From Thermococcus sp. (GTDB lineage Archaea; Methanobacteriota_B; Thermococci; Thermococcales; Thermococcaceae): a DNA stretch of 57,905 nucleotides. The position numbers and the translations under genes are program-made. The stretch is taken from NCBI GenBank assembly GCA_027074805.1, contig JALTCK010000146.1, forward strand, positions 1-57,905. The letters run 5' to 3'. The notes under the pieces are model-generated. The model worked only from the letters and a program-made list of their open reading frames with translations. It made no database searches and was not told the DNA's origin. Shown piece after piece: positions 34,038 through 55,637 of this stretch; positions within the stretch are counted from its first letter, which is position 1; each line of letters begins with the position of its first letter.

Positions 34038-34784
34038 TTGAGGGGAAATTGGTTCGGTGGGAGAATGCTGACACCAGAAAGGGTCCTCGAGTACTACTTC
34101 GCGATCGTGATTGTTGTTGGCGGACTCTCAACGCTCCTGGGGATAAAGTATACACTGCAGATGTGGAGGTCATTTCCTGAGAGCAAATGGATTGGGAGGA
34201 GCTTTGGCATGGGATTATTTGTCCTCGTTTTGGCCTCCTTCATCGAGGCTCCCTTTCTGTTTCTTCCCTTCAGAGTTCCACTCGCAGTAGCTGCCGGCGT
34301 GAGCGAGGAAACACTCAAGCTCCTGCCCCTGAAAATTTTCAGATGGGCGGAGAAATGGGAAAAATGGAAGCTTGTTGTGGGAACTGCATTCTTTCTAGGT
34401 CTCATAGAAGCGATGGGGTACATAGCGGGGATAATCCTCCTGGGTCAGCCTCTCTATCTGGTGGGCGTCAGGATCGTTCTCGTGGGAATGCACACTGTAT
34501 GGGCCGTGGTCACGGTCGGCTTTCTGCTGACCGAGAAAGGTCTTTCAAGGTTCAAGGGGCTCGCCTTCTCAATTATTGCACACACTCTCTACGACATCCC
34601 CCCACTGGCCATTGCAGACGGCGTTTCCGGGGATGCCATGCTTGCTTTAAGCGCCCTCTCAGCGACCTTCATGCTCCTGACACCAATAATGGCCAAGAGG
34701 TCGACCGAAAGGACAGCGGAGCTGATCCCAGTTAAGGAAGAGATGGAAGAAGAAAGCCCTGAGGGATTCACTTCTTCGCCTTGA
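34038..34784 (+). CDS. PrsW-like membrane protein (putative intramembrane metalloprotease)
   Basis: Multi-TM with EExxK ([15 protein letters not shown]), [11 protein letters not shown], and His in TMs ([15 protein letters not shown]). Confidence 0.75.
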
Positions 34785-36447
34785 ACCTCTCCTGGAGCTT
34801 GTATAGCTCCGCCACGCGCTCTATAGTGTCCGCTTCCTCGGGGCTCTTATCTTCTCTCAAAGCCACATAGCGCGGGAAGCGAAGCGCGAAGCCGCTCTTG
34901 TACTTCGGGCTCTTCTGTATCTCCTGGTAGGTGACCTCTATTACGAACCTCGGCTCGATCTCAACGAACTTGCCCTCCTGCTTCACTATGTAGGGCTTGA
35001 GCATCTTGGTGAACTCGGCCAAATCCTCGTCCGTGAAGCCGCTTCCAACCTTGCCCACCGGAACGAACTCGCCGCTGTGGGGGTCGAAGGCCGCAACCAG
35101 GTAGGATCCGAGGAGATGTGCGCGCCTTCCCTCGCCCCACTCAGCCCCTATTATGACCAGATCGAGGTTCTCCATCGTTGGCTTGACTTTCAGCCATTTT
35201 TTGCCCCTGTTACCGGGCTCGTAAGCCGAGTCAAGGCGCTTCGCCATCACACCTTCGTGCCCTAACTCCAGGGCCCTCTCGTAAAATGCCTGGGCTTCAT
35301 CGGCGTTCTTTGTGACCAGCTGGACTGCGAGCTTTATCTTCTCACTCTCCTCTACGCTCTCTTCCAGTTTTTCCCTCCTCTCGGTGAAGGGCGTGTCTAT
35401 CAGGGCTTCCCCGTCAACATAGAGGATGTCGAAAAGGTTAAGCTCAAGGGGAATCTTCTCTATCATCTCCTCGATGTTGTACTTCCTCCTGAAGCGCCTT
35501 AGGACGAACTGGAAAGGTCTAGGTCTTCCACCCTCTCCGACTGCAACCAGCTCGCCCTCCGCTATGACCTTTTCGGGTTTGAAGGAAGCCCTGATTGCCT
35601 CTACTATCTCCGGAATGGCCCTCGTAACATTTTCGAGCCTTCTTGAATAGACCACCACGTTGTCGCCATCCTTGTGAACCTGAACGCGAGCACCGTCGTA
35701 CTTTATCTCGAATGCTGCCTCACCCCCCATCTCCAAAAGCGCCTCCTTAATGTTGGCTGCGTTTTGAGCCAGCATCGGCCTTATCGGCTTGCCTATATGT
35801 ACGTTCACCTTCGAGAGGCCCCCGTTGCCCTCGAGCTTTGCGGTTTTAGCCACGTAGCCGAAGTCGCTGGTCAGCATGTACGCCCTCTCAACGAGCTCAG
35901 GTTTGACCTTAAAGGCCTCGGCTATAGCATCCCGTAGAATTCCCTCCGCGACGCCGGTTCTCATGGTTCCGAGAACGGTCCTCGCTATGTACTTACCTTC
36001 CTCTGGCTGAGCATCCATGAAGAGGTTTGCCAAGTACTTCATCTTCCTGTCCTGGCTGCCTTCTCCACTAGCCTCGGCTATCTTGACGAATGTGTTGTAA
36101 ACCCGTTTTATCGTTAACGGCTGGCTGAAAAAGCTCTTTTGCTTCTTCTTTTTCAGCGCCAGGGCAACGCTTTCGCCGAGATCACCAGTATCTCTGACCG
36201 AATCCTCTATCTCCCTCTCACTCACCCCGGTGGCCATGGAGACCGACTTTATGAGGAGCTTTTCACCGACACCGAGTTCCCTCTCATCCCAGTCGGGGAA
36301 GACCTTCCCAAGAATTAGGTAAGGAATAATGTCGAGGAGGTCGTCGGGAGTTTTTTTGAGAAATTCAGCGACAAACTTGGTCTTCAGGGTCTTGAGAGTG
36401 GTCTTCTCGAGTCTTCTGTACAGCTCGGCCAGTTCCGAGTACTTCAT
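34768..36447 (-). CDS. lig: ATP-dependent DNA ligase
   Basis: Adenylation motif [48 protein letters not shown]; start [14 protein letters not shown]. Confidence 0.95.
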
Positions 36448-36701
36448 ATCCACCACCGCATAAAATACGGTGAGGTGAATAAAAGCATAATGGGGAAATG
36501 TCTAGATATTCCATGAATCACTATGTGTGATAGTAAGGAAAATTGAAAGAAAGATGGAGTGGCAGAGGAAGAGCTTTCTCCGGCATATCTGCTCTTTGAG
36601 CACTAAAAATATCGAGAAAACATAAGCAGGGCTCACTGTTCAATATTCACGCCGTTAGGTTTTCTGATCAAGGGCCTATCTTCTGAGAACATGCGGGTAC
36701 G

Positions 36702-42928: not shown

Positions 42929-43230
42929 GCGTAATCATGGATAAGAAGCTCACCCGCCTCGAATTCAAGTTCGGTAATATAAACTGGGAGAAGGCGACTA
43001 TAAAGCAGTATGAACTCGAGAAGGATGAGAGAATCTGGAGAATATTCATCAACGGCTATGCCAAGAACGGCTTTGTGGTCTTCGACGAGGATGTTCTCTC
43101 GAGGGAGGAACTACTGAAGGCCCTTGGGGAGTTAGAGCCGGAGATAAAAGGGGAGAAGAAACTCACGGTGGCAGAGCTCATAGAGTCAAGCTACTCCTGG
43201 AACAACGTCCTTGGTAAGGGCGGCTCTTAA
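42925..43230 (+). CDS. Small protein of unknown function co-encoded with the tes-like gene
   Basis: 101 aa ORF overlapping the tes-like stop codon by 4 nt. Confidence 0.75.
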   Translation: MSVIMDKKLTRLEFKFGNINWEKATIKQYELEKDERIWRIFINGYAKNGFVVFDEDVLSREELLKALGELEPEIKGEKKLTVAELIESSYSWNNVLGKGGS

Positions 43231-44663
43231 CGGAGTTCTATCCTAACTTTTCCTCCGACCACCTTTTCAAGCTTAAAACTAACTATTCCCGAGAAAGACG
43301 ACAGGTCCAGCATGTTCTTCCCACGCTTCAGAGTGAAAACTTCTTTCTCTGCAGGAAGACTGGGTAGGGAGATGTCGTATTCGTAAACCGTCAGTTTTGT
43401 GTCCCTGTTTACATAGAAAACTGCCCTTGGATCCTTGTACCCATCGAGAGGAAATCCGCCGAAGAGGCCATCTCCCTTAAGCTTTATGGAGTCCAGGGGC
43501 AGTGAGAAGGCCACGGATGGCGGTGGGCCCCATATGGTCTTTTCATCTATCAGCATGATGTCCCTTACTCCTGTATCAAAGGGAGTGGCGGAGGTCTCTC
43601 CAGTGTTAGGGGAGTTGTTGGCACCGAGCAGCAAATTACCCCCGATCTTTTCAATGCTAGTTACCCTCGCACCAAGTGCACCCACTATCCTGACTACGGG
43701 GGGGGCTATATAAACCAGTACTGTGGGACCGGCGACGAGATGGGTGAACTCACCCCACCTTCTCCCCCCAAAGGAGACATCGTGATAGGAGTTGTAGGCG
43801 GTGAGAATCCCGCCCCCAACGTTCAGAGAGTTAACCCTAAAGGGTGCATAGAACGTTGGGAAATCAAAGAGACGGTAAAAAACGGGCTCTTCCCGGAGGA
43901 AAGGGCTTCCCACAAAGACCCCGCCCCTCACGAAAGCAAAAAACCTGTTGTGGGAGGTGGCCATTGAACCGAGCTCCGGCCTAACCACGTTGCCCCCATC
44001 CACGCTCGGGCCGGGTTTTATAAACTCCCATTCTCCACTCTCGAGGGATAGAGCCCCAAACTTCTTCACACCCCACGAAAAGTTGCTTCCAATGCCGAAA
44101 AGGGCCATGTCGTGTAGTATTGTGCCTTTGGGAGAAGGTTCGTCCAGAAGCCCCGTAGCCTCCCCCTTTCTCCTGTCAAGGGAATAAACGCCCAAGTGTT
44201 CATGTCCGTCCTCTCGGGCCAGTAGAAGTCTGTCGTTTAGAGGGTCGTAGAGTATATCCCCTATTTCGCCCGCCCAGCGCGTCTCAGAATGAATCGAATC
44301 CTTCCAGAGAAGTTTCATAGTGTCTTCCTTAACGTCATAAACGTGAACGTGAGAGTACTTATCCACAAAACTCACACGGCCCCGGTTATATCTTGCAGGC
44401 GCATGGACCCATCCACCGAAGTACAGGAATTCATCCACGGTCTCAACTGCGTTGTAAGTGTCACCACCACTCCTTGGAGGGGGGCCCAGCATGCCAAAAT
44501 TGTACATTCTCTCCTCTTCCTCTTTAACATCGAGGAAATGGGCCTCTGCCTCAAAAGCGAGAGTGTAGTACAGAACTCCTTCATGATATTTAAGCCCAAA
44601 GACCCCACCGCTACCCCATTCGGGAGAATACCTGCCGGGAAAGCTCCAGTTACGGAGGAACAT
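43227..44663 (-). CDS. DUF2139-like protein, paralog 1
   Basis: 478 aa; shares RNWSFPGRYSPEWGSGGVFGLKYHEGVLYYTLAFEAEAHF, GGDTYNAVETVDEFLYFGGWVHAP and LDLSSFSGIVSF with 53753..55291. Confidence 0.82.
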   Translation of the reverse strand: MFLRNWSFPGRYSPEWGSGGVFGLKYHEGVLYYTLAFEAEAHFLDVKEEEERMYNFGMLGPPPRSGGDTYNAVETVDEFLYFGGWVHAPARYNRGRVSFVDKYSHVHVYDVKEDTMKLLWKDSIHSETRWAGEIGDILYDPLNDRLLLAREDGHEHLGVYSLDRRKGEATGLLDEPSPKGTILHDMALFGIGSNFSWGVKKFGALSLESGEWEFIKPGPSVDGGNVVRPELGSMATSHNRFFAFVRGGVFVGSPFLREEPVFYRLFDFPTFYAPFRVNSLNVGGGILTAYNSYHDVSFGGRRWGEFTHLVAGPTVLVYIAPPVVRIVGALGARVTSIEKIGGNLLLGANNSPNTGETSATPFDTGVRDIMLIDEKTIWGPPPSVAFSLPLDSIKLKGDGLFGGFPLDGYKDPRAVFYVNRDTKLTVYEYDISLPSLPAEKEVFTLKRGKNMLDLSSFSGIVSFKLEKVVGGKVRIELR

Positions 44664-44664
44664 C

Positions 44665-45612
44665 TCAATGGCCTCCTTTAAGTTCTTTAAACTCAGTTGA
44701 TTTCATCAACTCTCTGAGGAAGGGAACGCTCCATGCACCTCTCCTAGTTACTGAGATTGCGGCTACTGTGTTTGCGAACTTCCCGATTCTCCTCAGCAGT
44801 TCACCATCCAATTCCTCAAATCTTTCCATGGCTCCGGAATGATGAAGACCGGCCAAAAAAGCCGCCATGAAAGCATCTCCCGCCCCGGTAGTATCAACCG
44901 CATTAACCTTGGGGGCGGGAACTTCGACTCGACTCCCCCCGGAGATTATAACAGCTCCCCTTGAACCGAGTGTGACCACAAGAACCGAAGGTTCAAAGGT
45001 TTCCACCTCAACACCTTTTTTGCGGAGGTAGGTATACTCCTCCCACCCCATTTTGACGATTGTGGCCAACTTCAGGCCCCCTTCTATGTCCTCAAGCATT
45101 TTCTCCTCCCTTCCCCTCCAGAGATCGAGTCTTATGTTAACGTCGTAACTAAGAGGAACCTTCCCCTGCAGGCTCTTCAGGGTTTTGAAAACCGTGCTTC
45201 TTGAGGGTTCGCGTGCGAACATGACCGTTCCGAAGTGAACCAGTTCGGACTCCAAAAGAATGTTTAAGGGTATATCCTCCTCCCGCAGGTTAAAATACGC
45301 AACTCCGTCATACAGAATAAACTCAGGCTTTGTGCCTATGAGCTGTACAAACACTACACCCGTGTGAAATTTCCCATCCCTTCCAATCATCGGCTTAACG
45401 CCTTCTCTTTCGAGGGAACTTATTAAAAAATCCCCGAATGGGTCATCTCCAACCTTGCTCACGAGCCCGCTCTCAACGCCTAACCTGGAGAGGCCCACTG
45501 CAACGTTTGCGGGGGCTCCTCCAGGATGTCTCTCAAACTTCGGCACCATGGCCAGTGGTTTGTCCTCAAGCGCTATCATGTCGATTAAAACCTCTCCAAG
45601 ACACATCATCAT
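44665..45612 (-). CDS. PfkB-family sugar kinase
   Basis: GGAPANVAVGLSRLG and DTTGAGDAFMAAFLAG PfkB signatures. Confidence 0.92.
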   Translation of the reverse strand: MMMCLGEVLIDMIALEDKPLAMVPKFERHPGGAPANVAVGLSRLGVESGLVSKVGDDPFGDFLISSLEREGVKPMIGRDGKFHTGVVFVQLIGTKPEFILYDGVAYFNLREEDIPLNILLESELVHFGTVMFAREPSRSTVFKTLKSLQGKVPLSYDVNIRLDLWRGREEKMLEDIEGGLKLATIVKMGWEEYTYLRKKGVEVETFEPSVLVVTLGSRGAVIISGGSRVEVPAPKVNAVDTTGAGDAFMAAFLAGLHHSGAMERFEELDGELLRRIGKFANTVAAISVTRRGAWSVPFLRELMKSTEFKELKGGH

Positions 45613-46805
45613 TTTACATCACCCACCATCTCCCGAAACTGGAAGTACAGCATCTTCAAGTTTTCTTTGGGATTACGGTAGTATTGCCCTGGAATTTCAA
45701 GTCTCACATCGATGTTATCAACAAACTCTAGTTCCTCTTTAATCTTTTTCATTAATTCGGCTGCCGGTTTGGGGCTCCCATCCCCCCTGAAAAGACCAAA
45801 GAATCTCTCATGGATGGCTCTGTCAAAGGGGGGTCTCCCCCAGAGGCTTTTGTGATAATCGGAGAAGTTCCAGTATACTGCTCCCAGGCTACCCACGGCG
45901 GCTGTGAGCCTTAGAGTTTTCTCCAGCCAGGAGGCCGCCTCTTCTTCGTTTATTAAATAATGGAGCATGATTGTCTTTCCCGTCGCAGAGGGTATTCTCC
46001 TAGTCTTCCCTGGAGTGGTCGGCATTCCGAACTCCTCCATGAGGACGTCCTTCCCACCCAGCTCTCGCGTTAGCAGAGATGTGAAGGGGATAAAATATGG
46101 GTCCAGAGGATCGGTGAAGTCCGTGTAAACCGAATAGGCATGCATGCACAGGTAGTCATTCCACCTTGCAACGTCCGGCACGTGAAAGTTTTTGTCCCCC
46201 TCTATATCCTCTTGGTGTATCCCGAAAGTAACCGGTTTCTTTGAAACGGATTTCAGGGTTTTGTAGACAAATGCAAGCCATTCAGATGCAACGGCTGGAC
46301 TTCGGGGGATAAAGACGTTGTCAAGTTCATTTGAGATATCCCAGCTGTGAATTGCAGGATGTGAAGAGAATTCCCTTCCAACAGTCTGTAAGAGCAACTC
46401 CTCGGCTTCGAGTGCCTTGGGATCCTCATATATGTTTACGGCTCCCACATCCACAACCCTACCATCCGAAAATGTCAGGAACCTCTCATGAGGCCTTTTT
46501 GAGAGGAGCCATTTTGGAAGCCAGTTTAATCCGCTCATGTGCCCGATAAAGAACGTTGGAATGACCAGAAGGTTCAGCTCACGGGCTAAGTCCAGTACCG
46601 TACCCAGGTTAGAGAGGGCTGCATCGTTTATGACATCCGGGTAGGGCTGAAAGTCCTCCCAGAGGAGGAAAATCCTGATGAGTCTAAGTCCAAGATCTCT
46701 TATTTGTGTGAACTCCTCCAGAACTTCTTCCTCACTGAAGTCCCTCCACCAGAACATGGCCTTCCTTCTCGGCCAGTAGTTGACACCCAAGGTGAATCCC
46801 AACAT
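45609..46805 (-). CDS. Clan GH-A glycoside hydrolase (GH5/mannanase-like), cytosolic
   Basis: WDISNELDN (acid/base NE) and VLMEEFGMPT (nucleophile E); no signal peptide; start MLGFTLGVNYWPRRKAMFWW. Confidence 0.85.
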   Translation of the reverse strand: MLGFTLGVNYWPRRKAMFWWRDFSEEEVLEEFTQIRDLGLRLIRIFLLWEDFQPYPDVINDAALSNLGTVLDLARELNLLVIPTFFIGHMSGLNWLPKWLLSKRPHERFLTFSDGRVVDVGAVNIYEDPKALEAEELLLQTVGREFSSHPAIHSWDISNELDNVFIPRSPAVASEWLAFVYKTLKSVSKKPVTFGIHQEDIEGDKNFHVPDVARWNDYLCMHAYSVYTDFTDPLDPYFIPFTSLLTRELGGKDVLMEEFGMPTTPGKTRRIPSATGKTIMLHYLINEEEAASWLEKTLRLTAAVGSLGAVYWNFSDYHKSLWGRPPFDRAIHERFFGLFRGDGSPKPAAELMKKIKEELEFVDNIDVRLEIPGQYYRNPKENLKMLYFQFREMVGDVK

Positions 46806-46832
46806 CCATCCCTCCAAAAATATTTGAAGGGC

Positions 46833-47666
46833 TCAGCCCTTGATTCCTCCCGCGACACCCCTCATGTAATACTTCTGGAGCAGCACGTAGACGAGTATCG
46901 GGACTACTATCGAGAGGGTTCCTGCGGCTGTTAGCTGTCCCCAGTTGGGGTTGTAGCGGCTTATGAAGGTTGTAACCCCCGCTGAGACCGGCCATTTATC
47001 AGGGCGGAGCAGTGTTAGTGCAAAGAACAGGTCCTGCCAGACGAAGATGAACTGGACGACGGCCACGCTTATAACCGCGGGGAGGGCTATGGGGAGTATT
47101 ATCCTGAAGTATATCCCTACGTCGCTCAGACCGTCTATCTTTGCAGCTTCCTCGTAATCCTTTGGAATAGCCTTAAAGAAGTTCCGCAGGAAGAAGATTG
47201 TCCAAGGAAGTGCAAACGTTGAGTGAACAAGGATTATACCGTAGTACTGGTTGTACATGTGCAGGTCCCTGAAGAGCTTGAGGAGAGGGACTATAACCGC
47301 CTGCTGTGGTACAACCTGAATTGCAACGAGCGTCAGGAAGAGGAGCGTCTTTATGGGAAAGCTGAAAGAAGTGAATCCGTAGGCAGCCATGCCCGCTATG
47401 AGGATTGGCAGGATGGTTGCGAAGGTCGCTATGAGGAGAGAGTTGAGGATATACCTCCAGAAACCCGCATCCCAGACCTGCCTGTAATTTATGAGCGTGA
47501 AGTGGGCGTTGTGAAGGTTCCACCACCCGTTGACTATCTCCGCAAAGGGTCTTACTGAGGTCATGACAAGGGCCAGGAGTGGAATGAAGAGTACCACCCC
47601 TATTATCCACGCCACTAGGTTTATCGAAATCTTGTACTTGGTGCTAACTTTAACCACTCTCAACAC
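46833..47666 (-). CDS. Sugar ABC transporter permease (MalG-like)
   Basis: EAAKIDGLSDVGIYFRIILPIALP EAA loop; six TM. Confidence 0.93.
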   Translation of the reverse strand: MLRVVKVSTKYKISINLVAWIIGVVLFIPLLALVMTSVRPFAEIVNGWWNLHNAHFTLINYRQVWDAGFWRYILNSLLIATFATILPILIAGMAAYGFTSFSFPIKTLLFLTLVAIQVVPQQAVIVPLLKLFRDLHMYNQYYGIILVHSTFALPWTIFFLRNFFKAIPKDYEEAAKIDGLSDVGIYFRIILPIALPAVISVAVVQFIFVWQDLFFALTLLRPDKWPVSAGVTTFISRYNPNWGQLTAAGTLSIVVPILVYVLLQKYYMRGVAGGIKG

Positions 47667-48546
47667 CCCTTTCGCCTATCATCTTTTTCAGCATTCCTAG
47701 GGAGAACACGAACACCGAAACGGTTAGCAGGGTTGCTATGGCCGCTGCATATCCCCACCGGAAGTTGTAGAATATCTCATAGTAGACCATGTACGCAAGC
47801 ACGAACAGGTACATTGGAACCGACTCTCCGCCGGAGAGGACGTAGATTAGATCGAAGACCTTGAGGATGTAGATGGCGCTCATGGTAACAACAACTATCA
47901 GGGCAGGCTTTAGGAGGGGCAGGAGGATGTATCTGAACCTCTGCCAGGCATTCGCACCGTCAATCCATGCTGCCTCGAGCACTTCAGTATCAAGCCCCTC
48001 CAACCCTGCTAGAAAAACCGTAGTTGCAAACCCCTGCCACGCCCACAGGGAGCCTATTATTACGAAGTATATTGCCGTGGAGGGGTCCTGTATCCAGGCC
48101 CTCGGGGGAACGCCGAATATTTCAAGGATCCTGTTCACGATTCCCGCGTGCGGGTCCAGGAGAAGCATCCAGACTATACCGACCACCGTCATGGGCATTA
48201 CCATACCGAGCATTACAAGACCGCGGAGAACGTTCCTTCCGAACACCGCCTTGTTGTGGAGCAGGACGGCGAAACCAAGGCCGATGAGAGTAACCAAGGG
48301 TAGGAATACCACGAATATGAACAGGTTGTTCTTAATCGATGTCCAGAAGAGAGGGTCGTGAATCATTTCCTTGTAGTTTGCAATCCCCGCGAACTTGGGG
48401 GCGGTCATTCCATCCCAGTGGGTGAAGCCGAGATAGAACGTGTTGAACAGAGGATAGATTATGAAAATTAAAAGAAGAATGAAGGCGGGCATCATCAGAA
48501 TAAAGAAATCCTTCGTCAGCCATCTTCTTCCGCCCATCCCCAACAC
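47650..48546 (-). CDS. Sugar ABC transporter permease (MalF-like)
   Basis: EAAWIDGANAWQRFRYILLPLLKP EAA loop. Confidence 0.93.
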   Translation of the reverse strand: MLGMGGRRWLTKDFFILMMPAFILLLIFIIYPLFNTFYLGFTHWDGMTAPKFAGIANYKEMIHDPLFWTSIKNNLFIFVVFLPLVTLIGLGFAVLLHNKAVFGRNVLRGLVMLGMVMPMTVVGIVWMLLLDPHAGIVNRILEIFGVPPRAWIQDPSTAIYFVIIGSLWAWQGFATTVFLAGLEGLDTEVLEAAWIDGANAWQRFRYILLPLLKPALIVVVTMSAIYILKVFDLIYVLSGGESVPMYLFVLAYMVYYEIFYNFRWGYAAAIATLLTVSVFVFSLGMLKKMIGERGVESG

Positions 48547-48547
48547 C

Positions 48548-49885
48548 TCATGACTTGTAGTACTGCTCCGCGTATTGTTCGAGCTGTTCAGCTATCTGTT
48601 TGTAGTTGTCCGGGTTGGCCCAGAACTCGAAGAGCTTGTTCCAGATTATGGGCTGGAATCCTGGCGGTGCGTTGTCGTCAAGATCCGGCACAATGCCGTA
48701 CTCCTTCATCCACTCAACGACCTTGGCGTCCGTTGGGTCATAAGCACTAAGGGGAACCTTAAGGTTCGGGGCGAGGTAGCCCTTCTTCTTTACCATGATC
48801 TCCTGGTACTGAGGTCCTGCTAGCCACTTTGCCAGCTCCATAGCCGCCTCTTTGTGGGGAGCGTTCTTCGGAATGACGACCCAGTCTCCACCGGCGACGA
48901 TGGCGAACTTGGCGCTCTGGTTTATGACCGGGAACGGTATTAGTCCAAAGTCAGTTCCGGGTTTGACTCCTTCCTTCTCAAGCATGAGGACAATCCAGTT
49001 CCCCATGAAGTACATGGCTACCTGGCCGTTGGCGAGCCTCGGGACCTGCGCCTCCCACTTCTCCCCTATAGCAGTCTGGGGATTGCCGTAGCAGCCCTCC
49101 TTTATGAGGTCGCGGAGTATCTTGAAAGCCTCAAGAACGCGCGGGTCTGTCCATTTGACCTTGTGAAGCATGAGGTCGTTGTGGAGCTGGGGCCCACCAA
49201 CCCTAATAAGAACCGCTTCAAAGATGTCGGAAAGTGGCCACTTGTCGGCGGCACCACTAGCCATGGGTTGTATCCCGTTTTCCTTGAAAATTTTACAATC
49301 CTGTTTGAGCTGGTCTAGGGTCTTTGGTGGCTCCAAGTTGTACTTCTCAAAGTCGTGGACGTTGTACCATATTCCTGGCTTGGCCCAGGCTTTAATTGGA
49401 ACTGCATAGTATGTGTTTCCAACGGTGACCATGTTGAGGAGATCCTTTTGAATCTCTCCGTTGTATGCGTCAACAACGCTATTCATGGGTTCAAGCTGTC
49501 CTTTTTGGCCAAGTTCCTTTATAAGGGCCGGCCACGGTAGAATTGCGATATCAAAGGATGGCGAGCCTGTTGCAAGTTCTGTGAGAACGGAATCTCTAAG
49601 TTTTGACTGCACAACATACTTTATCTTGACGTTCGGGTGCTCCTGTTCGTACACCTTGAGAGCGCTCTCAAAGTTCTGGCCTTCAACTCCACCCCACTGT
49701 CCGTAAATAACTACTTCAACAGGCTTCTGGGATGTGGTGGTTGTCTGACTGGTCGTGGTTGCCTGTCCGGAGCTGGATGTGCTTGTCTGGGTTGTGGAGG
49801 TTCCTCCTCCCGAAATGCACCCCGCCGCAACAACGGCGAGTACAAGAACAAAAACCATGGCAATGCTCAGGGGTTTCTTTCCCAT
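48548..49885 (-). CDS. Sugar ABC transporter substrate-binding lipoprotein
   Basis: Lipobox VVAAGCISGGG plus Thr/Ser linker; solute-binding fold (VEVVIYGQWGGVEGQNFESALKVYEQEHPNVKIKYV). Start at MGKKPLSIAMV. Confidence 0.92.
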   Translation of the reverse strand: MGKKPLSIAMVFVLVLAVVAAGCISGGGTSTTQTSTSSSGQATTTSQTTTTSQKPVEVVIYGQWGGVEGQNFESALKVYEQEHPNVKIKYVVQSKLRDSVLTELATGSPSFDIAILPWPALIKELGQKGQLEPMNSVVDAYNGEIQKDLLNMVTVGNTYYAVPIKAWAKPGIWYNVHDFEKYNLEPPKTLDQLKQDCKIFKENGIQPMASGAADKWPLSDIFEAVLIRVGGPQLHNDLMLHKVKWTDPRVLEAFKILRDLIKEGCYGNPQTAIGEKWEAQVPRLANGQVAMYFMGNWIVLMLEKEGVKPGTDFGLIPFPVINQSAKFAIVAGGDWVVIPKNAPHKEAAMELAKWLAGPQYQEIMVKKKGYLAPNLKVPLSAYDPTDAKVVEWMKEYGIVPDLDDNAPPGFQPIIWNKLFEFWANPDNYKQIAEQLEQYAEQYYKS

Positions 49886-49914
49886 ACGCACACACCTCAA
49901 GTTGTATTCACAGT

Positions 49915-49933
49915 TGATTTACTTTAAGTATAT
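49915..49933. promoter_or_regulatory. Imperfect second copy of the palindrome (TTTACT-TTA-AGTA core, 49918-49930)
   Basis: Core matches the perfect palindrome at 50044-50062; adjacent to TATATATA box of the substrate-binding protein promoter. Confidence 0.5.
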
Positions 49934-50043
49934 ATATAGTTTTTGGATTCCGTCAAAAGTCGAGGATTAATAGCCATGAAAAAACTTCAATATCCAATTA
50001 TGGACTGAAAAAAAGGAAATTTTTATATATACTGTGAGCATAT

Positions 50044-50062
50044 TGTTTACTAAAAGTAAACA
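50044..50062. promoter_or_regulatory. Perfect palindrome TGTTTACT-AAA-AGTAAACA, candidate operator
   Basis: 8-bp arms, 3-nt spacer, just downstream of TTTTTATATATA box and upstream of TrmB-family gene. Confidence 0.7.
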
Positions 50063-50127
50063 CATAGTGAAGGAGTGTGGGCAATGTATTTAGGAAGGAG
50101 AACCAACCAATTAGAGGGTGTGTGTCA

Positions 50128-51147
50128 ATGGAGCCAAGTGATAAAATTATGAACGCCATGACGGGACTCGGGTTCACGAAGTACGAGGTTCTCACATACT
50201 GGACTCTCCTTGTAAACGGTCCAAGCACTGCCAGGAAAATATCTGAGGAAAGTGGAATACCCTACAACAGGGTTTACGATACTGTGACCTCCCTCAAGGC
50301 ACGTGGTTTCGTTACCGAAGTGGAGGGAAGCCCACGTGTTTACGCAGCGTTCTCGCCATCGATAGCATTTATGAGGTTGAAGAGCGACATAGACGACCTC
50401 AGAAAGTTGTTTGAAGAGGAACTCTCAAAATCCAAGCGCAAAGGGCAGGAAAAACCAGCTATCTGGAGAACGACGGATATAAACGAGGCCATCGAGATGG
50501 TACGGGAGTCCATAGAGAGCAGTGAATACGAGATAATACTCGTGGCACCCGAGAAATTTCTAGAGGAAATTAAGGGGGACCTAGAAAATGCCCTTAAGAG
50601 GGGGGTTACTCTGTCAATATACACCGGTGGAGAAGCCTCGTTAAATGGGATTAGGGGAAAGGGAAACCTGTTCATAAGGAGGTTTCACAGGCTGAACCAT
50701 TTCATAGGGATGTTCGATGGAAAGGAGGTTATTGACATACAGAACATAGGGCTGAGGCCGAGAAATCCTCCGAGCTTTAAAGCAACGTATCCTGAGATTA
50801 TTTTTGCTCAGTATGCATTTGTTCGAGAGGCTTTTCAAGAATCAGAGCTTCTAATTGAAGACGTCAACAAAAAGCACGACGTCAGGTTTTTCACGACCTT
50901 CCATGCCGTTGACTTGATACGGAGGTATCTGCCACGCCAAAAGATATACGCGGAAATAGTGGGACGGAACTTATCAACTGGAGAGACTGAGACTCTGGCA
51001 GGTCAGGTGGTGGGTTATAGCGTCGTCCTGGAGGAGGGAATAGACAATTTTGATCTCAAAATCGATGGAAGTGTTGTGAAGGTTGGAGGAATGTTCGCCG
51101 TGTTGGAAGAGTATGAGAGCACGAAAATACGTCTCATACTTGAGTGA
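50128..51147 (+). CDS. TrmB-family sugar-sensing transcriptional regulator
   Basis: N-terminal TrmB wHTH (GFTKYEVLTYWTLLVNGPSTARKISEESGIPYNRVYDTVTSLKARGFV); start at ATG 50128. Confidence 0.9.
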   Translation: MEPSDKIMNAMTGLGFTKYEVLTYWTLLVNGPSTARKISEESGIPYNRVYDTVTSLKARGFVTEVEGSPRVYAAFSPSIAFMRLKSDIDDLRKLFEEELSKSKRKGQEKPAIWRTTDINEAIEMVRESIESSEYEIILVAPEKFLEEIKGDLENALKRGVTLSIYTGGEASLNGIRGKGNLFIRRFHRLNHFIGMFDGKEVIDIQNIGLRPRNPPSFKATYPEIIFAQYAFVREAFQESELLIEDVNKKHDVRFFTTFHAVDLIRRYLPRQKIYAEIVGRNLSTGETETLAGQVVGYSVVLEEGIDNFDLKIDGSVVKVGGMFAVLEEYESTKIRLILE

Positions 51148-51154
51148 GGTGTTG

Positions 51155-52264
51155 ATGATGGCCGGTGTCCGTCTCGTTGGAGTTTGGAAGGAGTTTGAGG
51201 GAGTAGTTGCCGTAAGGGATATGAACCTCGAAGTGAGAGATGGGGAGTTCATGATACTCCTCGGTCCGAGCGGGTGCGGGAAGACCACCACGCTCAGAAT
51301 GATAGCGGGTCTTGAGGAACCCACTAGGGGAAAGGTCTACATAGGGGAAGATCTCGTCGCCGATTCTGAAAAAGGCGTCTTTGTTCCGCCAAAGGACAGG
51401 GACATAGCAATGGTTTTCCAAAGTTATGCCCTTTATCCCCACATGACGGTCTACGATAACATGGCATTCCCCCTAAAGCTCAGGAAAGTCCCCAAAAAGG
51501 AGATAGATCAGCGTGTTAGGGAGGTGGCCGAACTACTCGGGCTTATGGAACTCCTCAGGAGAAAGCCCCGGGAGCTGAGCGGGGGTCAGAGACAGCGAGT
51601 GGCCCTTGGAAGGGCTATTATAAGAAAACCAAAGGTGTTCTTGATGGACGAGCCGCTCAGCAATCTCGATGCAAAACTCAGGGTAAAGATGAGGGCGGAG
51701 CTCAAAAAGCTCCAGAGGCATCTGGGGGTCACCACGATATACGTTACCCACGATCAGGTTGAAGCCATGACTATGGGTGACAGAATAGCCGTCATAAACG
51801 GAGGAATCCTTCAGCAGGTTGGTACGCCAGAAGAAGTTTACAACAGGCCATCAAACACTTTTGTTGCCGGATTCATTGGTACACCACCAATGAACTTCCT
51901 TGAGGGGACCCTTCTTGACGACGGTAGAGTGGACTTTGGAGACTTCCATCTAAGACTGACCGCAGGACAGCTGGAACTTGCCAGTGGCTACACGGGAAAA
52001 ACATTAACCCTCGGAATAAGGCCGGAGGACATATACGATGTGGACATCTCCCCCGTACACGATGAGGAGAACACGATAAGGGGCCGTGTGGACATTTTGG
52101 AAAACCTCGGAAACGAGAAAATCGTCCACGTGTCCCTGGGAGGATATTCCCTCACGGCCTCCCTTCCGCCGGAATCCCGGGTGGAGGAAGGTTCAGAGGT
52201 CGGGTTAGTGGTGAACATCAAGAGGGCCCACCTCTTCAATGAACACGGAGAAGCCCTGTTCTGA
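51155..52264 (+). CDS. Sugar ABC transporter ATP-binding protein (MalK/MsmK-like)
   Basis: Walker A GPSGCGKTT, LSGGQRQRVALGRA, Walker B VFLMDEPLSNLDA, C-terminal OB-like domain; start at ATG 51155. Confidence 0.94.
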   Translation: MMAGVRLVGVWKEFEGVVAVRDMNLEVRDGEFMILLGPSGCGKTTTLRMIAGLEEPTRGKVYIGEDLVADSEKGVFVPPKDRDIAMVFQSYALYPHMTVYDNMAFPLKLRKVPKKEIDQRVREVAELLGLMELLRRKPRELSGGQRQRVALGRAIIRKPKVFLMDEPLSNLDAKLRVKMRAELKKLQRHLGVTTIYVTHDQVEAMTMGDRIAVINGGILQQVGTPEEVYNRPSNTFVAGFIGTPPMNFLEGTLLDDGRVDFGDFHLRLTAGQLELASGYTGKTLTLGIRPEDIYDVDISPVHDEENTIRGRVDILENLGNEKIVHVSLGGYSLTASLPPESRVEEGSEVGLVVNIKRAHLFNEHGEALF

Positions 52265-52273
52265 GGTGAAAAC

Positions 52274-53734
52274 ATGCTGGCCGTTATCACTTTCACAGAT
52301 CCCCGACCAACATCTCTTTCATCAGAACGGGAGAGCGCAATGAAAGAAAAGCACGAGACTCTCGTGTCATTCCTGAGAAACAGCGGCTTTGACGTGATCG
52401 ATCTGAATTCGGAGCTCGGGAAATACTCTTCCCTCAAGGACGGCAGAAACTTTGGGATAGACTCAAAAGAGGAAAGCGTCAGGGCTGCAAGGATAGTTGC
52501 CTCGAAGGATGTTGCGGGGGCCATTATTGGACTCTGGCACTGGACAGAGAGCAATCTCGTAACGGCCTTTGCAAGGGAATCAAAGGTTCCGCTGCTCCTC
52601 TACGCGGATGACGATCCTGCATGGGCAGGTTCCACTTGCATAACATCTGTGGGGGCCTCTCTATGGGAGAGCTCCATACACGAGCACACCCTCAGGCACT
52701 TTAGGCTAAAAGGGGACACCTCTTCTCTTCTGAGTTGGGCTAGGGCCGCTGAAGCCGTTAGAGAGCTTTCAACCCGCCCCCTCCTTATCTTCGGATCCCC
52801 CTACACGTTAGGAATGGAGCACCTTATGGACGACATCCCAGGACTCAAACGTATGGTGGAAGATTTTCTGATGGTTGATCAGTACCTTATTGTGAAAAAG
52901 GCCGGAGAAATCGATGAGAAGAGGGTGGATGAATTCTACGAATGGCTGCTATCAAAAACGGAGGTTAAATTTGATGGAAGGATGCTGACACCCGAGAGTC
53001 TAAAGCGCCAAATACGGCTTTACTTGGCATCAAAGGAGTTAACCGACAAAAACGTTGCCGGGGTATCAATAAAGTGTCAGCCCGAGTTGAGTGAGGTCTA
53101 TGGAACCACAGCCTGCTTGATCCCTGCGTTTTTCCCCTTCCCCGTTGATGCAGAGGGAGAAAAAGGGGTAATACCTGCAACCTGTGAGGGGGATATTAAG
53201 GGCACAATCAGCTCCTCAATCCTCTACTTCCTGAGTCACAAACCTCCTCTCTTCGGGGACATAAAGTACCTCGACGACGACGTGGTCATAATAGCAAACT
53301 GTGGGGCATCTTCTCTCTATTATGCTAGATTAAGCGAAGACCCCGAGGAGAACCTCAGGGGAACGACGCTCCAGGGGCAGTGCCAGGGAAAAAGCGGGGC
53401 CGCACTCACATACCGCACACCCCCAGCAACCTTCACATTCGCGAGATTAATACGGAGAAACGGGAAGCATTACCTCCTCTATTTTCTCGGAGAGGGAGTT
53501 GAAATCGACGAGAAAATAGAAGAAAAGCTACTATGGGGTAAGCAATGGCCCCACACGGCTATCAAGAACCCCCTGGATAAAGAAACCTTTCTGAACGTCA
53601 TGGGTGCGAATCATCTCTCGGCTGTTCCGGGGGACTACATCCGGGAACTCTGGTTCATTGCAAGGATGTGGGGGATTAGGGGAATAAATCTAAACAATCC
53701 CTCCGATGTTAGGAGGTTCATCGAGGAGTTGTAA
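52274..53734 (+). CDS. L-fucose/L-arabinose isomerase-like sugar isomerase
   Basis: Fold-typical C-terminal half: GVSIKCQPELSEVYGTTACLIPAFF, GVIPATCEGDIKGTISSSILYFLSHKPPLFGDI, IIANCGASS. Confidence 0.8.
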   Translation: MLAVITFTDPRPTSLSSERESAMKEKHETLVSFLRNSGFDVIDLNSELGKYSSLKDGRNFGIDSKEESVRAARIVASKDVAGAIIGLWHWTESNLVTAFARESKVPLLLYADDDPAWAGSTCITSVGASLWESSIHEHTLRHFRLKGDTSSLLSWARAAEAVRELSTRPLLIFGSPYTLGMEHLMDDIPGLKRMVEDFLMVDQYLIVKKAGEIDEKRVDEFYEWLLSKTEVKFDGRMLTPESLKRQIRLYLASKELTDKNVAGVSIKCQPELSEVYGTTACLIPAFFPFPVDAEGEKGVIPATCEGDIKGTISSSILYFLSHKPPLFGDIKYLDDDVVIIANCGASSLYYARLSEDPEENLRGTTLQGQCQGKSGAALTYRTPPATFTFARLIRRNGKHYLLYFLGEGVEIDEKIEEKLLWGKQWPHTAIKNPLDKETFLNVMGANHLSAVPGDYIRELWFIARMWGIRGINLNNPSDVRRFIEEL

Positions 53735-53752: not shown

Positions 53753-55228
53753 TTATCTCAGATCTATTTTCACCTTTCCTTTGAAGTCCTTCTTCCATAG
53801 CTCGAAGCTCACTATCCCACTGAAGGTACTCAGGTCAATCACATTCCTTCCCTTATTGAGTTCGAAGACTTCTGACTCCGCCTCGGTAGCTGGCAGTGAG
53901 AGGTCGTACTCGTAAACTGTAAGCCTGTTGTCCTCGGAGAGCTTCAGGATCAGCCTCGGCTCGCGGTAGCCGTCGAGAGGGATACCTCCAAAAGTCCCCG
54001 CGTTGAAGTCCCTGGCGGCACTCGGGAGGGCGAGAGGGAGTGAGAAGCTCACGGCGGGTGGTCTCTCCTGAAGAACATTCTCATCAAGGATTACAATGTC
54101 CCTGTTACCTGTGTCAAAGGGCGTCGCCTCGGTCGAACTCGTGTTGGGTGCGGTATTCGTCGCCACGAGTATCTTTCCATCCATCTTTGCAATGCTCGTC
54201 ACTCTAGCTCCAAAGGCCGCCACTATCCTCACCATTGGGGGAGTTATGTAAACCAGCACGCTCGGGCCGACGATGGTGTTTGTCGCCTTCCACGCGAGCC
54301 CCTCGTACTCAACGCTCGGCCTGTAGACGGCATCGTGGTGAGCATTGAAGGCCGTTAGGATTCCGCCACCGACGTTCACCGCGTTCACACGGTAGGGGGA
54401 GTAGAGGGTGTAGAAGTCGAAGAGGCGGTAGAATCGGAACCCCTCGTCCATTAGGGGGTTGCCGGCAAAGAGGCCGCCCCTGACGAAGGCAAAGACCCTG
54501 TTGTAGGCGCTCGCCAAGTCTCCGTAGTCAGGTTTTACATAGACCCCTCCGTCGACGCTCCCCCCGAGGGGAAAGCTCTCCATTTTACCCGTTATCATGT
54601 CAAGGGCCATCATTTCCTTTAGGCCTTCCCTGAAGTTCCTTCCAATTCCAAAGAAGGCCACGTCATGAACCACAGCCCCTTTAAGGGAGGGCTTATCTGA
54701 GAGCCTCTCTATCTTCCCGGTCCTCCTATCTAGGGAGTAGATTCCAAGGTTTGCGTGACCATCCTCGCGCGGGAGGAGGAGCCTGTCACCGTAGGGATCG
54801 TAGATTATGTCGCTTATCTCCCCGGCCCAATCGGTTTCATGGTGGAGGGATTCCTTCCAGAGGAGCCTGATGGAGTCGTTCTCAGTGTCATAAACGTGAA
54901 CGTGCGAGTACTTGTTGTTGAAGAGTATTCTCCTATCTTCTCTGTAAACGGCAGGGGCGTGAACCCAGCCGCCGAAGTAGAGGAACTCATCTACACTCTC
55001 AACTGCGTTGTAAGTGTCGCCCCCGCTCGTTGGGGCGTTGCCCACGAGGGTGAAGTCGTAGAGCTTTTCCTTCCCAGACTTAACGTCGGTGAAGTGGGCT
55101 TGGGCCTCAAATGCCAAAGTGTAGTATAGAACTCCGTTGTGGTATCTAAGGCCAAATATCCCGCCGCTTCCCCATTCCGGTCCATAGCGGGGCGGAAAAC
55201 TGTAGTTCCTGAGAAGCATCCCATTCAT
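53753..55228 (-). CDS. DUF2139-like protein, paralog 2
   Basis: Likely start MNGMLLRNYSFPPRYGPEWGSGGIFGLRYHNGVLYYTLAFEAQAHF; high similarity to 43227..44663. Confidence 0.82.
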   Translation of the reverse strand: MNGMLLRNYSFPPRYGPEWGSGGIFGLRYHNGVLYYTLAFEAQAHFTDVKSGKEKLYDFTLVGNAPTSGGDTYNAVESVDEFLYFGGWVHAPAVYREDRRILFNNKYSHVHVYDTENDSIRLLWKESLHHETDWAGEISDIIYDPYGDRLLLPREDGHANLGIYSLDRRTGKIERLSDKPSLKGAVVHDVAFFGIGRNFREGLKEMMALDMITGKMESFPLGGSVDGGVYVKPDYGDLASAYNRVFAFVRGGLFAGNPLMDEGFRFYRLFDFYTLYSPYRVNAVNVGGGILTAFNAHHDAVYRPSVEYEGLAWKATNTIVGPSVLVYITPPMVRIVAAFGARVTSIAKMDGKILVATNTAPNTSSTEATPFDTGNRDIVILDENVLQERPPAVSFSLPLALPSAARDFNAGTFGGIPLDGYREPRLILKLSEDNRLTVYEYDLSLPATEAESEVFELNKGRNVIDLSTFSGIVSFELWKKDFKGKVKIDLR

Positions 55229-55247
55229 TTTTGTCACCGTTTTAAAT

Positions 55248-55271
55248 TTCCCGCGGGAACCTTTTAAGGTT
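55248..55271. promoter_or_regulatory. Adjacent palindromes TTCCCGCGGGAA and AACCTT-TT-AAGGTT in divergent promoter
   Basis: Both visible directly in the ~60 bp between DUF2139 paralog 2 and lrgA. Confidence 0.4.
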
Positions 55272-55289
55272 AAAGGTGGAGTCAATATC

Positions 55290-55637
55290 ATGAAGCCCTA
55301 CCGCGGACTGGCTATAATCTTCGGCTTTTACGCACTTGGGGAGTTCACGAGCTTTGCCCTCAATCTAACGATTCCGGGAAGTGTGCTTGGAATGCTCTTC
55401 CTCCTCGCTGCCCTTCTCACGGGGCTCCTCCGGTTGGAATGGGTGGAGGATGAGGCAGAGCTCTTCATCAGGAACATGAGCGTCATGTTCATTCCTCCGG
55501 GTGTCGGGATAGTAAGCTACATCGGGCTGATAAAGAGTCAGATGGTGCCCATCTCGGTTGCCATTGTGCTCAGCTTTCTAATAACCCTTCTCATCACTGC
55601 AAAAACCGTCGAGTTTCTTAGGAGGAATGAGGGATGA
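55290..55637 (+). CDS. lrgA: LrgA/CidA-family (holin-like) membrane protein
   Basis: 115 aa; IPGSVLGMLFLLAALLTG, EDEAELFIRNMSVMFIPPGVGIVSY. Confidence 0.9.
   Translation: MKPYRGLAIIFGFYALGEFTSFALNLTIPGSVLGMLFLLAALLTGLLRLEWVEDEAELFIRNMSVMFIPPGVGIVSYIGLIKSQMVPISVAIVLSFLITLLITAKTVEFLRRNEG

Follow-up and report, generated by a model that had tools for sequence, protein, structure and literature searches.

Predicted operators of a TrmB-type regulator at the divergent promoters of a sugar island in Thermococcus

The window analyzed here, a 57,905-nucleotide stretch of a Thermococcus sp. genome (contig JALTCK010000146.1 of assembly GCA_027074805.1), carries a sugar island in which two divergent operons are separated by a 242-bp gap, from the ATG of a transporter gene at 49885 to the ATG of a regulator gene at 50128. 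Two palindromic sites within this gap are very probably operators of the adjacent TrmB-type regulator, through which both divergent operons would be repressed, the regulator's own included, and released by a sugar. This reading was built from motif, protein and neighborhood comparisons. The switch is ordinary and well conserved, and it belongs to a less-studied branch of the TrmB family. The sugar island, which is absent from the papers found, is thereby assigned a repressor of the TrmB type and an operator known from the literature.

Predicted operator sites and the adjacent regulator

Two divergently oriented promoters lie in the gap, and both combine a TATA box with a TACT-N3-AGTA core. At the regulator promoter, the right operator is the perfect palindrome TGTTTACT-AAA-AGTAAACA (equal to TGTTTACTAAAAGTAAACA), located at 50044-50062 (no strand assigned), with 8-bp arms, a 3-bp spacer and its core at 50048-50058. 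The TATA box of this promoter, TTTTTATATATA (50020-50031, plus strand), was assigned by inference from the archaeal promoter consensus and is preceded by a GGAAA stretch resembling a transcription factor B recognition element (BRE); TTTTTATAT at this box was conserved in an alignment of the gaps of relatives. At the transporter promoter, the left operator, TTTACT-TTA-AGTA (TTTACTTTAAGTA), was located at 49918-49930 (likewise without strand) and is of the TrmB type. Its core, TACT-TTA-AGTA (49920-49930), is perfect, with asymmetry confined to the outer bases, and it abuts or overlaps the end of the leftward TATA box TATATATA (49930-49938, minus strand), which follows a BRE-like CAAAAA stretch and was also conserved in the alignment of relatives. 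The original prediction, which had reported the palindrome and an imperfect copy next to the opposite promoter's TATA box, was exact in the coordinates of both. It had also placed the palindrome just downstream of its TATA box; the 19-bp site does begin 13 nt past the end of that box (50031), but it spans the predicted transcription start of the regulator operon more than it adjoins the box.

In Thermococcus litoralis and Pyrococcus furiosus, TrmB has been described as recognizing this same core at the BRE/TATA of malE, in the trehalose/maltose (TM) operon, with repression relieved by sugar (PMC4158304). Both island sites match this published operator and are likewise placed at sugar operons, by the BRE/TATA box or over the start site. 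The novelty implied by the original prediction was not supported, the comparison there having been made only with the Thermococcales glycolytic motif (TGM, TATCAC-N5-GTGATA). The distinction from that motif itself was borne out, with no TGM found within three mismatches in 49886-50127.

The regulator gene (50128-51147, plus strand) encodes 339 amino acids with a winged helix-turn-helix (PF01978, 79.9 bits) and a sugar-binding domain (PF11495, 126.5 bits). P. furiosus TrmB (3qph) aligned over the full length of the protein at 55% identity (E 1.9e-122), and the recognition segment GIPYNRVYDT, including Y50/D51, was identical in the two. Paralogues of roughly 30% identity adjoining trehalose/maltose operons read GIPHTRVYDV at this segment. 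By these comparisons, the local regulator groups with TrmB and not with Tgr/TrmBL1.

Sites downstream of, or against, the TATA box are the repressor position for TrmB/TrmBL1 (PMC4706686), and both island sites hold such positions. In the proposed mechanism, a dimer of the 50128-51147 product would bind TACT-N3-AGTA at each divergent promoter, lying against the TATA box at the transporter promoter and across the start site at the regulator promoter. The bound dimer would exclude TBP/TFB or RNA polymerase, so that the transporter-hydrolase-kinase and regulator-ATPase-isomerase operons would be held off jointly and the regulator would limit its own synthesis. A sugar imported by the island, perhaps a beta-mannoside, may bind the C-terminal domain and release the regulator. 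In relatives, the regulator operon opens with treT; because treT is missing here and trmB comes first, autoregulation would be direct.

Conservation, chance and competing readings

Conservation was assessed in a genus sample of 61 genomes, 20 of which carry 22 TrmB-type regulators. At all TrmB-type loci with the promoter in view (20/20), the sugar operon carried TACT-N3-AGTA at its first promoter; two further loci (L042 and L099) stood outside this set, their contigs ending before the promoter. The 20 loci include malE-F-G-treT-trmB operons, used as positive controls, together with three loci whose regulator is more distant (36-39%). Five loci from a separate collection (L135, L136, L141, L145, and L146) also carried the core at the promoter, and the 4-kb surroundings of 19 paralogues with 27-34% identity (L015-L033) contained none. 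Across six aligned divergent gaps with a mean identity of 60%, the regulator-side core TACTAAAAGTA was invariant at 11 of 11 bases, and the outer bases varied freely among relatives (TTTACT...AGTAAA, TATACT...AGTATA, and asymmetric mixtures). One genome (G020) carries two copies of the island (L034 and L035), with regulators 99% and 83% identical to that of the window and the same operators; because the operators are shared, cross-regulation between its two islands is likely.

A core that stays fixed while its flanks vary argues for base recognition of DNA by a protein and not for an RNA hairpin. That the palindrome at 50044-50062 instead forms such a hairpin within the leader RNA of the regulator is extremely improbable, even though the 19-mer folds as RNA at -5.3 kcal/mol (z -4.3). 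Relatives retain the core and lose the complementarity of the arms (TGTTTACTAAAAGTATATA), on which ground the hairpin was rejected. Furthermore, the transporter promoter has the same core against its TATA box, upstream of the expected start, the 84-nt leader folded no better than shuffles, and a stem of 8 bp rich in A and U would probably not hold at hyperthermophilic temperatures.

Chance was estimated from first-order Markov sequences modelled on the 242-bp gap. One TACTN3AGTA occurred in 0.6% of these and two in none of 20,000. Palindromes of the 8-3-8 form arose in 0.8%, and those with 8-bp arms and any spacer from 0 to 8 in 5.9%, so the perfect palindrome alone was rejected as proof. The case for the operators is carried by the pair of cores and their conservation; the perfect palindrome on its own is weak. 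Genome-wide counts were obtained by pattern searches of an assembly that is 88.7% complete. TACTN3AGTA was rare, with 18 sites in 1.67 Mb compared to 65 for the reversed control pattern, which gives a probability of about 3e-6 for two cores in one gap of this length. Apart from one between co-directed genes (C68), the remaining 16 sites were dismissed as regulon members: nearly all of the 16 are intragenic, and those on C21 and C114 belong to the element described below.

Several observations weigh against this reading as a plain TrmB switch. Two of the six divergent gaps that were aligned show a single mismatch to the core on the transporter side. Against the NCBIfam TrmB equivalog, the regulator scored 538 bits and the cut-off of 600 was not reached, because of which it is assigned to a sister subgroup of TrmB and not to strict TrmB. 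Among the seven published sugar contacts (S229, N305, G320, M321, V324, I325, and E326), G320, M321, V324, and E326 are retained; I325L is mild, and S229A and N305D are non-conservative. Aspartate at 305 is common to the whole sister group (the window, L034-L039, and L092-L094), and alanine at 229 is limited to the near relatives of the window (L034, L035, and L092). Because two of the seven contacts are non-conservatively substituted, the effector and even the sign of the response could differ.

These altered contacts, together with the fact that glucose is a co-repressor of P. furiosus TrmB, are also what would favor a regulator that mainly activates here or that answers a co-repressor sugar, TrmB-family proteins being capable of both. 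Neither island site lies upstream of its own BRE/TATA, the position tied to activation, and such a mode is very unlikely. The original prediction, that the sites are recognized by the local TrmB-family protein and positioned to repress, has good support from the sequence evidence, and both sites function in all likelihood as operators.

A look-alike element at secreted-protein genes

The genome scan with TTTACTnnnAGTAAA that accompanied the original prediction would be misleading: of the three places that it hits in this genome, two are copies of a separate, conserved promoter element of secreted-protein genes. TTTACTN3AGTAAA has three sites in the genome, and the two that are not TrmB-island sites are copies of this element, at 454-484 in L056 (G000:C114) and at 31-61 in L045 (G000:C21). 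The element consists of the palindrome TTTACT-N3-AGTAAA followed by AGGAAAAACTTATAAG and stands just upstream of very diverse secreted-protein genes. In its full form (ACTNNNAGTAAAAGGAAAAACTTATAAG), it occurred 89 times in 40 of the 61 genomes (up to 3 mismatches), with no occurrence of a reversed control. By a crude test, 22 of 32 downstream proteins have an N-terminal signal peptide of the xWKPLFAVLLGLLMVG type, the fuller form common to these proteins being xWKPLFAVLLGLLMVGVTAG. No description of the element was found in a single literature search.

This second conserved element shares the core and is present in genomes without a TrmB-type gene (e.g. G018, G004, G030, and G002), which would favor another regulator, such as that of the secreted-protein promoters, binding the island sites while TrmB acts elsewhere. 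The element, however, has a fixed and different context (AGTAAAAGGAAAAACTTATAAG), in which the palindrome precedes the TATA box in the manner of an activator site. The island sites, by contrast, follow or abut the TATA box, and they accompany TrmB-type genes in 20 of 20 loci. We therefore regard binding by another regulator as quite unlikely. Because the look-alike is found without a TrmB-type gene, the TrmB regulon is not delimited by searching for the core alone, and genome scans with the palindrome alone will catch an unrelated promoter family. It is unlikely that the TACT-N3-AGTA code is shared by the sugar repressor and the secreted-protein element; if it were, secretion of the proteins behind that element would also be tied to sugar availability in genomes with a TrmB-type protein.

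Island genes and comparison with known systems

The leftward operon (minus strand) begins with a sugar ATP-binding cassette (ABC) transporter solute-binding lipoprotein (48548-49885, ATG at 49885), followed by two ABC permease genes (46833-48546; individually 47650-48546 and 46833-47666), a glycoside hydrolase whose nearest solved relatives are, weakly, GH5-type mannosidases/mannanases (45609-46817), a PfkB-family sugar kinase close to PH1459 of Pyrococcus horikoshii (44665-45612), and a DUF2139 protein as the last gene (43227-44663). In the regulator operon (plus strand), the second gene encodes a MalK/UgpC-type ABC ATPase (51155-52264) and the third a protein with an L-fucose isomerase C-terminal domain (52274-53734). 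Relatives of the solute-binding protein bind a range of sugars, manno-oligosaccharides among them, and the kinase is similar to fructokinases as well as to PH1459. A beta-mannoside cargo would be consistent with the relatives of the hydrolase, binding protein and kinase, and is offered as a guess. DUF2139 proteins flank the island on both sides (43227-44663 and 53753-55291); no published account of DUF2139 was found in the literature search. No publication matching the island was found in literature on TrmB and Thermococcus with mannosidase or regulon. A 22-codon open reading frame with a plausible ribosome site (50085-50153) overlaps the regulator gene start in another frame; since it is interrupted in the relative L035, it is probably a chance occurrence.

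TrmBL1/Tgr shares with the island regulator its protein family, domains and position-dependent action at Thermococcales promoters. It differs in its motif, TATCAC-N5-GTGATA, which has no copy at the island promoters, and TrmBL1-like paralogues are only about 30% identical to the window protein. Elsewhere in the window, a TGM with one mismatch (AATCACTATGTGTGATA, 36516-36532) lies about 60 nt upstream of a minus-strand gene (34768-36456) whose product looks like an ATP-dependent DNA ligase, an unexpected location for a glycolytic motif.

TrmBL4 of Thermococcus barophilus (TERMP_00277) likewise belongs to the TrmB family and is encoded divergently from an operon for a sugar ABC transporter. Its cluster includes a maltose phosphorylase, and no TACT-N3-AGTA has been reported upstream of its operon (PMC10667668). 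Identity of the island regulator with TrmBL4 was not supported by the TrmBL4 gene neighborhood. TrmB of Halobacterium salinarum (VNG1451C) also recognizes TACT half-sites, in a site with a longer spacer (TACT-N7-8-GAGTA), and is a global metabolic regulator (PMC4158304).

The island most resembles the TrmB/TM operon of T. litoralis and P. furiosus, with which it shares the TACT-N3-AGTA core, the winged helix-turn-helix and sugar domain, the identical recognition segment, and a transporter operon with a site at the TATA box. Unlike that operon, the island has two divergently arranged operators, one of them at the promoter of the regulator, and lacks treT. Instead of trehalose synthase, it has genes for a hydrolase, a kinase, an isomerase, and DUF2139, and its regulator has S229A, N305D, and I325L in the sugar pocket. 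DNA recognition has apparently stayed constant as the sugar pocket and the set of regulated genes changed, which makes the island a case in which a change of effector within TrmB could be tested.
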